Origin: Streptomyces sp. NBC_00539
Lineage (GTDB): Bacteria; Actinomycetota; Actinomycetes; Streptomycetales; Streptomycetaceae
Assembly (NCBI RefSeq): GCF_036346105.1
Contig: NZ_CP107811.1
Coordinates: 4,855,501-4,919,500, forward strand
Reading direction: 5' to 3'
Length of the DNA: 64,000 bases
Part shown: positions 13,871 to 47,825 of the stretch, one piece after another
How positions within the stretch are numbered: the first letter of the stretch is position 1
Layout of the letters: every line of letters begins with the position of its first letter
Translations under genes and position numbers: made by a program
Notes under the pieces: model-generated
Databases searched by the model: none
Seen by the model: the letters and a program-made list of their open reading frames with translations, nothing else
What the model was told of the DNA's origin: nothing

Positions 13871-15598
13871 ATGTCCGACAACGCCGACCAGGCCGAACGC
13901 GATGCGGCCGGGGGTGGGAGCGCCGCCGCGCAGGGGGCGCCGTCGCCCGGCGCGGTGCCGCCCCCGGCCGCGGTGCCGCCGGCCGCTGCTCCGCCCCCGG
14001 CCGCGCCCGGGATGCCCGGGCACGATCCCGCGGCGTGGCACGGCTGGCTGATGTACCAGCACGAGCTGCGCCGGCAGCAGGCCCACGCCGATGCGGTGGC
14101 GAAGGCGGCCGCCTCGATCGGCGGGCGCGTCCGCACCGCCCAGGCCGCGCCGATCCGTACCGCCACCCTGGTGGCCGTCCTCGTCGCGGGGCTGGCCACC
14201 GCCGTCTTCCTCGGCGACGGCATGGGCCCCGGCCTGCTGCTCGCGGCCCTGCCGGCCATGGTGGCCGCCTACGTCTCGGCCCGGGCGGCCGGCCGCACCG
14301 CCCGCCCCTGGTCCGTGCTGTGGGCCCTCGGCTGCGTGGCGCTGCTCGGGGTCCCCGCTCTGCGCGACTCCGCCTGGCCCTCGACTCTGGCCGTCCTGGC
14401 CGCCGTGCTGCTGGCCGCGCTGGCCCTGCACGGGAGCCGGCGGTGGCCCGGCGTGCTGTTGAGCCCGCTCGGATTCCTGAGCACCGCCGTCTCCGGGGTC
14501 GGTTGGGCCTGGGCGGGAGTGCGGGAGCGGGGCGGCGGGGCCGGGCGTGAGCGCTGGCTGCCCGTCGCCAAGGCGAGCGTGGTGGCGGTCGGGCTGCTGC
14601 TGGTGTTCGGGGCGCTGTTCGCCTCCGCCGACGCGGCGTTCGCCGACCTGCTGGGGGAGCTGGCTCCGGACGTCTCGGTGGGGGAGGGGCCGTTCCGGAT
14701 CCTGCTCTTCCTCTTCGGCGCGGTCCTCGCGCTGGCGGCCGCCCGTACGGCCGCGGCCCCGCACCGCTGGGACCGCATCGAGGTGGCGCCGGGGAAGGCG
14801 CGGTCGAGGGTGGAGTGGGGGCTGCCGCTGATCGTGCTGAACCTGTTGTTCGCGGGCTTCATCGCGGTGCAGTTGGCGGTGCTGTTCGGGGGCTACGACA
14901 AGGTGCTGGAGAGCACCGGGCTCACCTACTCCGAGTATGCGCGCCAGGGGTTCTGGCAGCTGCTGTGGGCCACGGTGTTCGTGCTCGGCGTCATCGCGCT
15001 CGCCCTGCGGTGGGCGCCGCGGGGGACGGCCGGCGACCGGCGCTTCGTGCGGGTGGTGCTGGGTGTGCTGTGCCTGCTGACGCTGGTGGTGGTCGCCTCC
15101 GCCGTGCGGCGGATGGACCTGTACGTGGACGCGTACGGGCTGACCCGGCTGCGGCTGTCGGTGGTCACGATGGAGCTGTGGCTCGGGCTGGTGATCGTGT
15201 TGCTGATGGCGGCCGGGGTGGCGGGCGGTCGCTGGCTGGCCCGGGCGGTGGTCGGGAGCGCGGCGGTGACGGTGCTGGCGTTCGGGCTGGTGTCCCCGGA
15301 CGGGGTGATCGCGCGGAGCAACGTGACGCGGTACCAGGAGGAGGGCAAGATCGACCTGGCCTACGCCCGTGACCTGTCGGCGGATGCGGCGCCGGCGTTG
15401 GACCGGTTGCCGGAGCCGCAGCGGTCGTGTGCGCTGATCGGGATCCGGGACGAGCTGCGGGACGGGGGGCGGGGCGGGGCGCGGTGGTACGCGACGAGCC
15501 TCGGGGAGTACCGGGCCCGGGAGATCCTGCGGAAGCGGCCGGTGACGGTGTCCCTGAGCGAGTGCCGAACGCTCGGCGCGCCCGACGCCCGCCGATAA
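13871..15598 (+). CDS. DUF4173-like polytopic membrane protein
   Basis: A 575-residue protein; GAGGAACCTG just before ATG 13871 sets the start. Residues 1-75 are a Pro/Ala-rich cytoplasmic tail, followed by about ten transmembrane helices, for example TATLVAVLVAGLATAVFLG, WLGLVIVLLMAAGVAGG and ASVVAVGLLLVFGALFASAD. The conserved loop FGGYDKVLESTGLTYSEYARQGFWQLLWATVF is the mark of the DUF4173/DUF4153 family. A C-terminal extracellular or cytoplasmic tail carries two cysteines (RSCALIGI, SLSECRTLG). No transport or catalytic motif is apparent. Confidence 0.8.
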   Translation: MSDNADQAERDAAGGGSAAAQGAPSPGAVPPPAAVPPAAAPPPAAPGMPGHDPAAWHGWLMYQHELRRQQAHADAVAKAAASIGGRVRTAQAAPIRTATLVAVLVAGLATAVFLGDGMGPGLLLAALPAMVAAYVSARAAGRTARPWSVLWALGCVALLGVPALRDSAWPSTLAVLAAVLLAALALHGSRRWPGVLLSPLGFLSTAVSGVGWAWAGVRERGGGAGRERWLPVAKASVVAVGLLLVFGALFASADAAFADLLGELAPDVSVGEGPFRILLFLFGAVLALAAARTAAAPHRWDRIEVAPGKARSRVEWGLPLIVLNLLFAGFIAVQLAVLFGGYDKVLESTGLTYSEYARQGFWQLLWATVFVLGVIALALRWAPRGTAGDRRFVRVVLGVLCLLTLVVVASAVRRMDLYVDAYGLTRLRLSVVTMELWLGLVIVLLMAAGVAGGRWLARAVVGSAAVTVLAFGLVSPDGVIARSNVTRYQEEGKIDLAYARDLSADAAPALDRLPEPQRSCALIGIRDELRDGGRGGARWYATSLGEYRAREILRKRPVTVSLSECRTLGAPDARR

Positions 15599-16342
15599 CC
15601 CGCCCCGGCCAACGCCGGCTTCCTCCCCGGGCCGGTCAACTCCCGCCCCCGGGCCGGTCAACGCCGACCCCGCCGGGGCCCGGGGCGGCCATCTCCAGCC
15701 GGGGTTTGTGCCCGGGCCGCCCAACTCCGGCCCGCCCGGGGTTTATACCCGGGGCCGGTCAACGCCCGCCTCGACGGGGCGGCCATCCAGCCTCGCCGGC
15801 GTTTGAGGCGCGGGGTACGGGGCGGAGCCCCGAAAGCCCGGCGCAGCCGGGGCCGCTTGCGCAACGGCGCCGCACCGGCCCGGACCGGCCGGGGCCGGAC
15901 ATCAAGGGCAGGCCGGCTGCGCCGGGCCTTCCGTGGCTCCGCCCTGAGCCCCGCGCCTTTATCGTCGGCGAGGCTGGGTTGGGTTACCCGGCTGGATTTG
16001 GTTACCCGGCTGGGTTGGCCTGTCCTCCGGACCCCGCGCCTCAATCGCCGGCGAGGCTGGATTTGCCGGCCGCCTGGTTGCGGTGGGCCCCTCCGGGCCC
16101 CGCGCATCAACCATCGGCGGGGCTGGGTTTGTTGCGGCCGGCTGCGCCGGGCCTTCCGGGGCTCCGCCCCGAGCCCCGCGCCTCAAACGCCGGCGAGGCT
16201 GGGCTTGGCCGCCCGGCTGGGTTGGTTCCCCGGCTAGGTGGGGCCATACCCCGGCCCCCCCATCAAGCGCCGGAGAGGATGGAGTTGCCCGCCGATCGGC
16301 TTTGGCTCCCCGCCCGGGTGGGCCCCCGGCGGGCGGTGGGTG
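15599..16342. repeat. Non-coding block with about six degenerate GC-rich repeats
   Basis: No plausible gene is seen in these 744 bases. A unit resembling GCGCCTCAAACGCCGGCGAGGCTGG recurs in degenerate form near 15786 (inverted), 15952, 16040, 16106, 16180 and 16258, often followed by TTTG/TTGG and CCGGC and preceded by GGGCCCCG. Open frames here are arginine- and proline-rich by-products. Similar elements are scattered between genes in Streptomyces chromosomes. Several copies in one gap suggests local duplication or recombination. Confidence 0.7.
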
Positions 16343-44330: not shown

Positions 44331-44939
44331 CTACCAGCGGCTGGGTGGCGGCGCGGTGAGCTGGTCGGCCAGCCGCGCCAGCCGGTCCCGCAGCCGGCGC
44401 GGCCCGCCGCGCGGCCCGGGCAGGTGGTTCTCCCCGGCCGCCGCGCTCACCAGGTGCTGCACGGTGTCCAGGTCCAGCTCGGCGGTGGCGTCCGGCACCG
44501 ACAGCGCCTCGTGGGCCAGCGTGCCCAGGTCGGGGTCCCCGCCGTCCAGGGACAGTACGGTCGCCCCGGCCCGGCGGGCGTCGTGGACGCGCTCCAGCAG
44601 ACCCCCGCCCGGCTGTTCCGGGGCGACCACCAGCAGGGTGTGCCCGCGCCGGGCCGCCTCCAGCCGGCTCAGCCCCACCGACAGGTGCGGCGGTTCACCC
44701 GGCCGCACCAGGTGGCGTACGAGGGTCGGCGCCAGCTGGGGCAGTCCCGACCAGGCGGCCTCGTCCACCAGGTGGGCGGCCAGGTGCCAGGGCTCGTACC
44801 GCTCGGTGCCCACCAGCAGCAGGTTCCCTCCGGCCGGTACGACCGAGCGGCGAAGCGCACCGGCGAACCGGCGCGCGGCGCCGGGCCACTGCGTACCGGC
44901 GAGCACCTCGCGCAGCAGCGCGACCCTCACGGCGTCCAT
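44331..44939 (-). CDS. Conserved hypothetical protein, SIS-like nucleotide/sugar-binding fold
   Basis: A 202-residue protein. The central part alternates strands and helices: GNLLLVGTERYEPWHLAAHL, GHTLLVVAPEQPGGGLLERVHDARRAGATVLSLDGGDPDLGTLA. This strand-turn-helix order resembles SIS-domain phosphosugar isomerases, but I cannot confirm it. The C-terminus is rich in Arg and Pro. It is divergent from the F420:NADPH reductase gene with about 100 bases between starts. Function unknown. Confidence 0.6.
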   Translation of the reverse strand: MDAVRVALLREVLAGTQWPGAARRFAGALRRSVVPAGGNLLLVGTERYEPWHLAAHLVDEAAWSGLPQLAPTLVRHLVRPGEPPHLSVGLSRLEAARRGHTLLVVAPEQPGGGLLERVHDARRAGATVLSLDGGDPDLGTLAHEALSVPDATAELDLDTVQHLVSAAAGENHLPGPRGGPRRLRDRLARLADQLTAPPPSRW

Positions 44940-45038
44940 GGCGGCATCCTGCCGCAGACGCGGTCGGTACGGTGGGCACTTCCCCGGGATGCCTCCCGAC
45001 GGGTGGGGGGGACGGTACTCGGCAGTACCTTTGCCCCC

Positions 45039-45743
45039 ATGACTACCTCAGACAGCACGCAGAAGCCGCCGGCCAAGGACCCCTGGGACCTGCCGGACGT
45101 CTCGGGCCTCGTCGTCGGCGTCCTCGGCGGCACCGGTGACCAGGGCCGCGGCCTGGCCTACCGCTTCGCCCGGGCCGGCCAGAAGGTGATCATCGGCTCC
45201 CGCGCCGCCGACCGCGCGCGGGCCGCCGCCGGGGAACTGGGCCTGGGCGTGGAGGGCGCGGACAACGCCGAGTGCGCGCGGCGCAGCGACATCGTGATCA
45301 TCGCGGTGCCGTGGGAAGGCCACGCGAAGACCCTCGAAGCGCTGCGCGAGGACCTCGCGGGCAAGCTGGTGGTGGACTGCGTCAACCCGCTCGGCTTCGA
45401 CAAGCAGGGCGCGTACGCCCTCCAGGTCCCCGAGGGCAGCGCCGCCCAGCAGGCCGCGGCCCTGCTCCCCGACTCCCGGGTCACGGCGGCCTTCCACCAC
45501 CTCTCGGCGGTGCTGCTCCAGGACGAGTCGGTCGAGGAGATCGACACCGACGTGATGGTCCTCGGCGAATCCCGCGCCGACACCGACGTGGTCCAGGCCC
45601 TCACGGCCCGCGTCCCGGGCATGCGCGGCGTCTTCGCGGGCCGCCTGCGCAACGCCCACCAGGTCGAAGCCCTGGTCGCCAACCTCATCTCCACGAACCG
45701 CCGCTACAAGTCCCACGCGGCCCTGCGCATCACGGACGTCTGA
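45039..45743 (+). CDS. npdG: NADPH-dependent F420 reductase
   Basis: A 234-residue protein. The N-terminal Rossmann motif VVGVLGGTGDQGRGLAYRFARAG and VIIGSRAADRARAAA binds NADPH; DIVIIAVPWEGHAKTL, VVDCVNPLGFDKQGAY and VTAAFHHLSAVLL complete the F420:NADP oxidoreductase pattern. It transfers hydride between NADPH and the deazaflavin F420, supplying reduced cofactor to enzymes such as the LLM oxidoreductase at 4120-5130. The roughly 20-residue N-terminal extension (KPPAKDPWDLPD) is typical of streptomycete versions. Confidence 0.93.
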   Translation: MTTSDSTQKPPAKDPWDLPDVSGLVVGVLGGTGDQGRGLAYRFARAGQKVIIGSRAADRARAAAGELGLGVEGADNAECARRSDIVIIAVPWEGHAKTLEALREDLAGKLVVDCVNPLGFDKQGAYALQVPEGSAAQQAAALLPDSRVTAAFHHLSAVLLQDESVEEIDTDVMVLGESRADTDVVQALTARVPGMRGVFAGRLRNAHQVEALVANLISTNRRYKSHAALRITDV

Positions 45744-45767: not shown

Positions 45768-47825
45768 TCAGCCGCGTCGCGCGGAACGCCCGTCCAGCAC
45801 GCCCAGCTGTGCGATGACGCCGTGATAGAAGCGGTCCACGGCGTCATCCACGCTGCGGATGAAGCCCGAATCCGTGTTGCCCCGGGAACTCCCCATTCCC
45901 TTGACCAGGGACAGCCGGAACCCGGTGGCCGGCGCCCCGCCCTTGGGCAGTAGATTGCCCGGTTCGGGACGCAGCCGTTCCAGCGTGCCGCGCGGGCCGT
46001 TCCCACCCTCCATCAGTGTCTCCACGTGAAGATCGGCCGGTGCCTCGGCCAGCGTCCGCAGCAGCTTCTTCGCCATGGCCAGGGGGTACGAACCCGCAGG
46101 CGCGGGGATTTCCACTGACGTGCGGATCCTGGCCGTCCGCAGGTCGGCGGTGACCGCGACGACACTGTTCGTCCCGTCGATCCGGAATTCCGCCGTCAGT
46201 CGCCCGTCCGCGCAGAGCCTCTCGGCCGCGGCGAGCCGCCGTTCCTTCGGGTCGCTACCGCGCCGGGCCCGCTGCACCGGCAGCGCCTTCTGGCCCAGTT
46301 CACCACCGAGGCGCAGGCACGTCTGGCGGATGAGCCGCTCCCAGCTCTCCACGACGTCCACCGCCCGGCTGTCATCGACGCAGAGCGTCTCGTCCTCGAT
46401 GCCGTTACGAACGGCCACCCAGGAGGGGCCCATGTTCTGGAAGCCGTGGCAGCCGGAGTTCTCGTGCTGGAGGTACTGCAAGAACTCCTGGACGAGCCAC
46501 GCATGTGCTGCGTTCCCCACGCCCTCGTGCCGGATCAGCATCTGGGCCTGGTGGGCCACCTCGGCCCAGGAAAGGTGCCAGAGACCGACCTTGTGCTTCC
46601 GTCGTCCGTCGATCTTGATGTCGACGACGTCCGAGCCTTCGAGGGCCACGTCGTTGGAGAGGGTGATCACGGCCTCGTAGCCGCGCCGAGCCGCGATGTC
46701 CACGTACTGCTGCACCTGCTCGGGCTTGAGCGGGTTCCCGTTGGTCTTCGTCTCCACCAGGGCCGTCCACAGCTTCCCGGCACGTTCCACCCGGATCACA
46801 CCGTCCGGCCGGCGCGGGGTGTCGCCGTGGGGGAGGGACACCTCGGTGAAGGTCTGCATGCGGCCCGTCGGGGCGCCGAACGCGGCCGTGAGCCGACGCC
46901 CCAGTTCGGGCACCTGGGCCATGACGGACAGCAGCACGGAGGTGGCGCGGACCTCCCGTTCACGGTCGCTCTTGAGCGAGGGGACCGGAAACAGACGCGC
47001 CATCTGCCAAGCGTCGCTCTCGGCGAGCGACTTCTGGTCCTTGGGGAGCGTGACCTTCTTCTTGGTGGTCCGGGGCCCCTTGGAACGCTGCGCGGGGATG
47101 CTCGCGGCTTCGGCCCCGGCGCCTTCCGGGGCCGCCGAACCAACCGGTGCTTGCGGCGCTTCCGCTTCCTTGCTCGTCAAGGGGCCGGGCGCTTTCGCTC
47201 CGTCGGCGTCCTCGGGTCCCTCGATGGCCGTGGTGCCTTCGGCGTGTTCGGTGGCTCCGGTCTGTTCGGGCTCCTCGCTGTCGTCGAGCACCACGATGCC
47301 GAAGTCGGTGGCGAGACCGGCCAGACCGGTTTCGTACCCCTGGCCCACGGCCCGGAACTTCCATTCGTCGCCTCGCCGGTACAGCTCACCGAAGATGAAC
47401 GCCGTCTCGGGGCCCGCGTCGTCGATGGAGAATCCGACCAGCGCCTCCCCGGACCGGTCCGCGACCGTCATCCGCAGATCGTCGAGGTCCCCGAAGCGCG
47501 CGCCGCCGTACTGGCTGGCCGCAACGACGATCCGTGTGACGTCCTCCGGCACCGCCGTCAGATCCAGGCTGATGCGGTCCTCGTCACCGCTCTCGGTCGG
47601 AGCCTTGCCGAGCAGCCGCACGCTGCCGTCGGCGGCGGCCGGGTGGTTGTAGAAGTAGAAGTCGTTCTCGCTGCGGATCTTGCCACTCGCGTCCAGCAGC
47701 AGAACGGAGACGTCAGCGTCTCCGGCTCCCGATGCACTCGTCCAGCCAAGGCTCACGACAACCGCTCCGGCGTCCTCGCTGAGAGCGGTCAGACTGACGT
47801 TCGCGCCCTTGGAGATCTCCTGCAT
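45768..47825 (-). CDS. TerD domain fused to PD-(D/E)XK nuclease domain
   Basis: A 685-residue protein. Residues 1-180 are a TerD domain (MQEISKGANVSL, SVLLLDASGKIRSENDFYFYN, RLLGKAPTESGDEDRISLDL, GELYRRGDEWKFRAVGQGY), a calcium-binding stress-response fold. Residues 183-265 are an acidic/Pro-rich linker ending in basic PRTTKKK. Residues about 280-420 carry a restriction-endonuclease fold: RRPDGVI (Asp341), ALVETKTNG (Glu358, Lys360) and EQVQQYVDIA (Gln370-x3-Tyr374), that is PD...ExK plus QxxxY. The remaining 260 residues are unrecognised. Convergent with npdG; no other ter genes are adjacent. Confidence 0.85.
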   Translation of the reverse strand: MQEISKGANVSLTALSEDAGAVVVSLGWTSASGAGDADVSVLLLDASGKIRSENDFYFYNHPAAADGSVRLLGKAPTESGDEDRISLDLTAVPEDVTRIVVAASQYGGARFGDLDDLRMTVADRSGEALVGFSIDDAGPETAFIFGELYRRGDEWKFRAVGQGYETGLAGLATDFGIVVLDDSEEPEQTGATEHAEGTTAIEGPEDADGAKAPGPLTSKEAEAPQAPVGSAAPEGAGAEAASIPAQRSKGPRTTKKKVTLPKDQKSLAESDAWQMARLFPVPSLKSDREREVRATSVLLSVMAQVPELGRRLTAAFGAPTGRMQTFTEVSLPHGDTPRRPDGVIRVERAGKLWTALVETKTNGNPLKPEQVQQYVDIAARRGYEAVITLSNDVALEGSDVVDIKIDGRRKHKVGLWHLSWAEVAHQAQMLIRHEGVGNAAHAWLVQEFLQYLQHENSGCHGFQNMGPSWVAVRNGIEDETLCVDDSRAVDVVESWERLIRQTCLRLGGELGQKALPVQRARRGSDPKERRLAAAERLCADGRLTAEFRIDGTNSVVAVTADLRTARIRTSVEIPAPAGSYPLAMAKKLLRTLAEAPADLHVETLMEGGNGPRGTLERLRPEPGNLLPKGGAPATGFRLSLVKGMGSSRGNTDSGFIRSVDDAVDRFYHGVIAQLGVLDGRSARRG

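Follow-up and report, generated by a model that had tools for sequence, protein, structure and literature searches.

What would a bacterium gain by joining a TerD domain to a nuclease? The question is raised by one gene in a 64,000-nucleotide stretch of Streptomyces sp. NBC_00539 (NZ_CP107811.1; genome 7.5 Mb), which was analyzed at its full length and is called the window here (G+C ~73%). The gene lies at 45768..47825 on the minus strand and encodes a protein of 685 amino acids in which, from Pfam and predicted structure, a TerD domain is followed by a linker, a PD-(D/E)XK nuclease-like domain, and a domain apparently like YbjN and type III secretion (T3S) chaperones. We put at roughly 0.5 the probability that this is a three-domain accessory nuclease (TerD, flexible linker, PD-(D/E)XK core, and chaperone-like domain), that is, an optional gene for stress or foreign DNA and not one of housekeeping repair.

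Ter (tellurite-resistance) genes also confer resistance to phages and colicins, for reasons that have long been unclear, and a link between Ter and DNA processing has been proposed from comparative genomics. With a single protein that unites TerD and an apparently intact predicted nuclease, one gene and two point mutants would be enough to test this link. The nuclease unit also exists in a free-standing form, described below, which offers a natural comparison without TerD, and the arrangement in three domains hints at the possible nature of the switch.

What does the gene encode?

An earlier sequence-only reading of this locus had placed a 685-residue frame at 45768-47825. The frame is indeed open, but it is on the minus strand, as are all features of the gene given below; the plus strand, in the frame tried, contains stops. 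The Pfam TerD profile (PF02342) is matched over its whole length by residues 3-175 (47301..47819; E 5.5e-50), and a search of PHROGs gave a match confined to this part. Residues 181-258 (47052..47285) form a low-complexity linker of Ala, Glu, Pro, and Gly with a predicted local distance difference test (pLDDT) score of 31-45 in blocks of ten. The PD-(D/E)XK domain, of restriction-endonuclease fold, spans approximately residues 270-460 (46446..47018), as judged from the order of secondary structures, structural matches, and conservation.

One scan supplied the homologues: the best 80 of 268 relatives were kept (67-79% identity to the window protein; 77 of the 80 titled Streptomyces), and all counts of 80 loci or 80 homologues refer to these. 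The nuclease core is their best-conserved part: mean identity is 86% there, 73% in TerD, 69% in the C-terminus, and ~29% in the linker, whose length between residues 178 and 263 varies from 61 to 122 amino acids. For structure prediction, one alignment (A2) held 49 of the 81 sequences and another (A5) all 81.

Is the central domain a nuclease?

The candidate catalytic residues sit at the positions named by the sequence-only reading: D341 (46803..46805), a predicted metal ligand; E358-T-K360 (46746..46754), the predicted catalytic ExK; and Q370-x3-Y374 (46704..46718), in the helix following the ExK strand. Because none of the five residues varies in the alignment of the window protein with the 80 homologues (81/81), the motif is, on the sequence evidence, not due to chance. 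Their conservation in homologues had been set beforehand as a test of the idea, and they prove identical in 134/134 aligned homologous domains, a set that extends to free-standing units of 35-39% identity and to still more distant ones. E328 and N391 are likewise found in 134/134, and E291 in 133/134. These rows come from 168 loci with a domain match; after 4 short loci had been set aside, 133 distinct strings remained, to which the window's own was added again, so that it is in twice.

The second test set beforehand was the presence of a restriction-endonuclease core, and such a core appears in the predicted structure, with modest confidence in that region. The ExK strand (the third, with ExK at its end), the QxxxY helix, and the flanking strands come in the expected order, and the fold confidence of the core is the lowest among the three ordered domains. 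All 16 listed VIA structural matches over the core have the restriction-endonuclease fold, four of them by background assignment; they include FokI, BspD6I, MspJI, SgrAI, McrBC, EcoT38I, and AspBHI, as well as rows assigned to Cap4 and AF1548. With its conserved D..ExK and its predicted core fold, the domain would belong to the PD-(D/E)XK superfamily (FokI, MspJI, McrC, Cap4, AF1548), with which it shares the helix and strand order, the D/ExK/QxxxY set, and the structural matches.

It differs from the known members in that no Pfam family covers it above the cut-off, and NCBIfam and PADLOC gave no useful match to the core. The best Pfam match is VRR_NUC (PF08774), with E 0.12 and 12.9 bits for the full-length protein and E 0.06 and 13.9 bits for the C-terminal part; this is below the curated cut-off of 23.8 bits and the assignment was rejected. 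No VRR_NUC or PDDEXK_4 reference sequences were gathered from 98 genomes each, and the PDDEXK_4 controls were also without a match.

What flanks the predicted nuclease core?

In TerD proteins, the D-x-D and GDNxxGxGxGDDE loops bind calcium, and the domain of the window protein had been taken for an intact-looking TerD of this calcium type. The domain itself is clear, and the first loop retains D-x-D (D36 in 99/102 and D38 in 102/102 fused TerDs), but the second canonical acidic loop is missing. In alignment with 3ibz of S. coelicolor and 2kxt of Klebsiella, the GDN..GxGDDE loop is swapped for a GK..G.ED stretch, residues 73-85 (GKAPTESGDEDRI; 47571..47609), with K74 in 99/102 fused TerDs. A calcium-type TerD, ruled out as a candidate by this comparison of loops, is thus not supported by sequence. 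The protein resembles the TerD family in fold and in sequence over residues 3-175; it differs from it in the loop and in its fusion with nuclease-like and chaperone-like domains. The fusion is not the only TerD with this loop in its genome, where 13 TerD matches were found, 8 with loci, and five distinct paralogous sequences were compared: three have GDN..GDDE and two the GK loop of the fusion. Elsewhere in the genome (L002, G000:C1:778531-779937), a TerD of the GK-loop type and a TerF-like vWA domain are encoded in a single open frame.

At the other end of the protein, a 260-residue C-terminus had been described as uncharacterized. The region is present, yet it holds a domain (45786..46373) whose modeled fold appears to resemble that of YbjN and the type III secretion chaperones (the TY-chaperone fold).

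As for precedents, Anantharaman, Iyer, and Aravind reportedly described in 2012 stress and DNA-processing systems linked to Ter, said to be multi-gene clusters, in which TerD is tied to DNA processing. The likeness is the joining of TerD to DNA-processing functions; the difference is that here TerD and nuclease form one polypeptide. In the parts of the literature covered by our search, neither a fusion of TerD to a nuclease nor a description of the free-standing family was seen; the 2012 work was outside the scope of that search and may list the architecture.

How is the gene distributed?

The C-terminal 431 amino acids, used as the query, matched 43/296 genomes of the class and 37/101 of the genus, and a family profile matched 20/396 genomes of the phylum, the three being overlapping samples. 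Rows outside the fused clade have the unit on its own, in open frames mostly of 450-580 amino acids with no TerD match upstream, and such free-standing units occur both in other families of the class and elsewhere in the phylum, in classes other than this one. A tree of 68 of the 134 rows (66 Streptomyces-type rows were thinned out, the root is at the midpoint, and long branches were flagged) puts all 37 fused rows in one clade of 38 rows (support 100/97). The sole row in this clade labeled as alone, L098, is a frameshifted copy with its TerD part in another frame. From these sequences it is likely that the free-standing unit came first and that TerD was added once. In one genus, free-standing copies have the same upstream gene in 5/5 loci read (L122-L126, by a look at the sequence). 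Near the free-standing copies L173 and L174 lie proteins of similar appearance (647 and 644 amino acids), the one in L174 adjoining a gene that is MazG-like by a look at the sequence.

The gene is present in 11 plasmid records, of which 6 are from Streptomyces and 5 from Rhodococcus; 10/11 annotate it as a TerD family protein and one is without annotation. Five of the 11 plasmids were opened, of which four are linear and one is circular. The gene also decays. A copy that looks intact, with an open frame of at least 690 amino acids, is present in 31/37 matching genomes of the genus and a broken one in 6/37 (G334, G340, G354, G377, G388, and G389), and G318 and G324 have an extra fragment next to an intact copy. 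The class sample adds two further broken or partial copies, G261 and G277. When the eight broken or partial copies were re-read, some retained the C-terminal end only and two were without the middle; G261 and G389 are simple frameshifts and possibly sequencing errors.

The patchy distribution and the plasmid copies in related bacteria therefore suggest that this predicted nuclease is probably an optional stress or defense gene, and together with the decay they fit an accessory role.

What might the protein do?

If the protein is an accessory nuclease, the core would be dependent on Mg2+ or Mn2+ and would cut DNA more probably than RNA. The chaperone-like domain may bind a protein or peptide and so recruit or release the nuclease, while TerD, on its long linker, would connect an older unit of nuclease and chaperone with the Ter stress machinery or with some ligand, not necessarily calcium. 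This TerD was probably joined only once in evolution. The cell would retain the gene as an optional, horizontally spread one for times of stress or of attack by foreign DNA. The sequence-only reading had offered the hypothesis of a stress- or phage-triggered nuclease with TerD as its sensor; because the nuclease unit is widespread without TerD, it is more likely that TerD is an added adaptor or regulator than an essential sensor.

In support of the accessory role we count the mobile and patchy spread, some conflict-type plasmid neighbors, and a TerF-like vWA gene directly downstream of the fusion on the same strand, at 149-219 bases, in 3/80 loci (L049, L055, and L066); this vWA family has 2 matches in the whole of the window's own genome. 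The same holds for the number of contexts: the 80 loci fall into 38, defined as components sharing at least two neighbor families within six genes (a count that is inflated by short contigs and drops to 10 if one shared family suffices). Several searches weigh against a specific role in defense. At 38 context representatives there is no clear enrichment of defense islands near the gene: PADLOC families matched number 61 for near genes (126 genes) versus 52 for far genes (126 genes) of the same loci, which is a reading and not a formal test, with the first 25 families inspected on each side. The phage collection gave no match to the fusion, and the 8 pattern matches in viral contigs include no relative. 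No upstream stress motif is shared across the 80 loci, where SigR-like sites occur in 4/80 (1.2 expected), LexA-like sites in 1/80 (0.2 expected), and six others in 0/80.

Could the protein instead repair DNA? It might be a repair or DNA-end-processing nuclease in which the YbjN-like domain keeps hold of a partner for single-strand binding or repair and TerD senses oxidative or metal stress, with no part in defense. The strong conservation of the core and the stable upstream neighbor of the free-standing forms in one genus agree with this, as does NucS, the actinobacterial mismatch endonuclease (PF01939), with which ExK..QxxxY aligns in register. That likeness is one of motif register only and the NucS match is not significant (hhalign probability 1.3%, with a score of 22.5 that takes rank 2 of 68 when set beside 67 neighbor families); one neighbor family, sigma-factor-like by eye, outscored it at 27.2, or 23.7 with rows reordered. 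A further parallel is DR1245 of Deinococcus, a protein related to YbjN that interacts with the SSB-like DdrB and so links a YbjN-like fold to a DNA-handling protein; it is a separate protein partnering DdrB, and the abstract names no nuclease domain (PMC3575483). A gene with any match in only 37/101 genomes of its genus, many contexts, plasmid copies, and broken copies is unlike a core repair gene, and a LexA-like upstream pattern in 1/80 loci and RecA-NDp/PafBC-like ones in 0/80 point the same way. We consider this explanation doubtful.

An effector against phages or plasmids that consists of one gene, and is either restriction-like or abortive, seems to us just as doubtful; its chaperone-like domain would recognize a phage protein or another foreign one, and the nuclease would then be freed. 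Such an effector would account for the accessory and mobile distribution, the plasmid carriage, and the decay; some plasmid neighbors have conflict-type roles (a CU044_2847 and trypsin-like pair, RES-family genes, and ThiF/JAB/DUF6602), and the listed VIA rows include McrBC and one assigned to the defense nuclease Cap4. Set against this are the varying neighbors, the results for PADLOC neighbors, phages, and viral contigs already given, and the protein itself, which is matched by 0 families of PADLOC-DB 2.0.0 at E up to 1.

A little more tentative still is the broader idea of mobile one-gene immune or stress effectors, in which a YbjN-type domain responds to a polypeptide that is foreign or misfolded by freeing the restriction-fold nuclease, with TerD, captured once by actinomycetes, coupling the whole to the Ter system; if this is true, Ter proteins would be linked to DNA cleavage directly at the molecular level. 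That the core survives as a relic, structural or nucleic-acid-binding, in a protein that works as a binding scaffold, as the low fold confidence of the core might suggest, is most improbable, given that relics usually lose such residues and that here the five catalytic-motif positions are invariant in the most conserved part of the protein.

What surrounds the gene?

The fusion gene is not obviously in an operon. No operon partner emerged from clustering, the best-shared neighbor family being present in 13/80 loci only, and no ter gene was seen beside the fusion among the window genes looked at. A TerF-like identity considered for a neighbor family of 11 loci was rejected, its sequence being PucR-like in appearance. 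The window gene with the most matches among the loci (14/80) is, by eye, an ABC-type ATPase.

The convergent neighbor at 45033..45743, on the plus strand, is like F420-dependent NADP oxidoreductases (PF03807, E 7.1e-24), has a match at +1 in 9/80 loci, and is not judged to be part of the system. The gene caller was crude and produced shadow frames; for example, 44424-45743 starts too early. An open frame of 202 amino acids downstream of the fusion (44331-44939, minus strand) has no Pfam match, and a similar-looking family stands at +2 or +4 in 6/80 loci.

Among the plasmid copies, that of a linear Streptomyces plasmid (L143:6269-14145, NZ_CP027299.1) has downstream of it a gene of the CU044_2847 family and one for a trypsin-like peptidase, a pair that resembles peptidase conflict systems. 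On a Rhodococcus plasmid (L145:9309-13160, NZ_CP058641.1), the adjoining row consists of a hypothetical gene, a ThiF adenylyltransferase, a Mov34/MPN/PAD-1 family gene, and DUF6602, with a RES-family gene on the opposite side of the copy. Far from the fusion, the window has a strong AT skew (-0.272) at 14001-16000, over a DUF4153 gene (14012-15598, plus strand).
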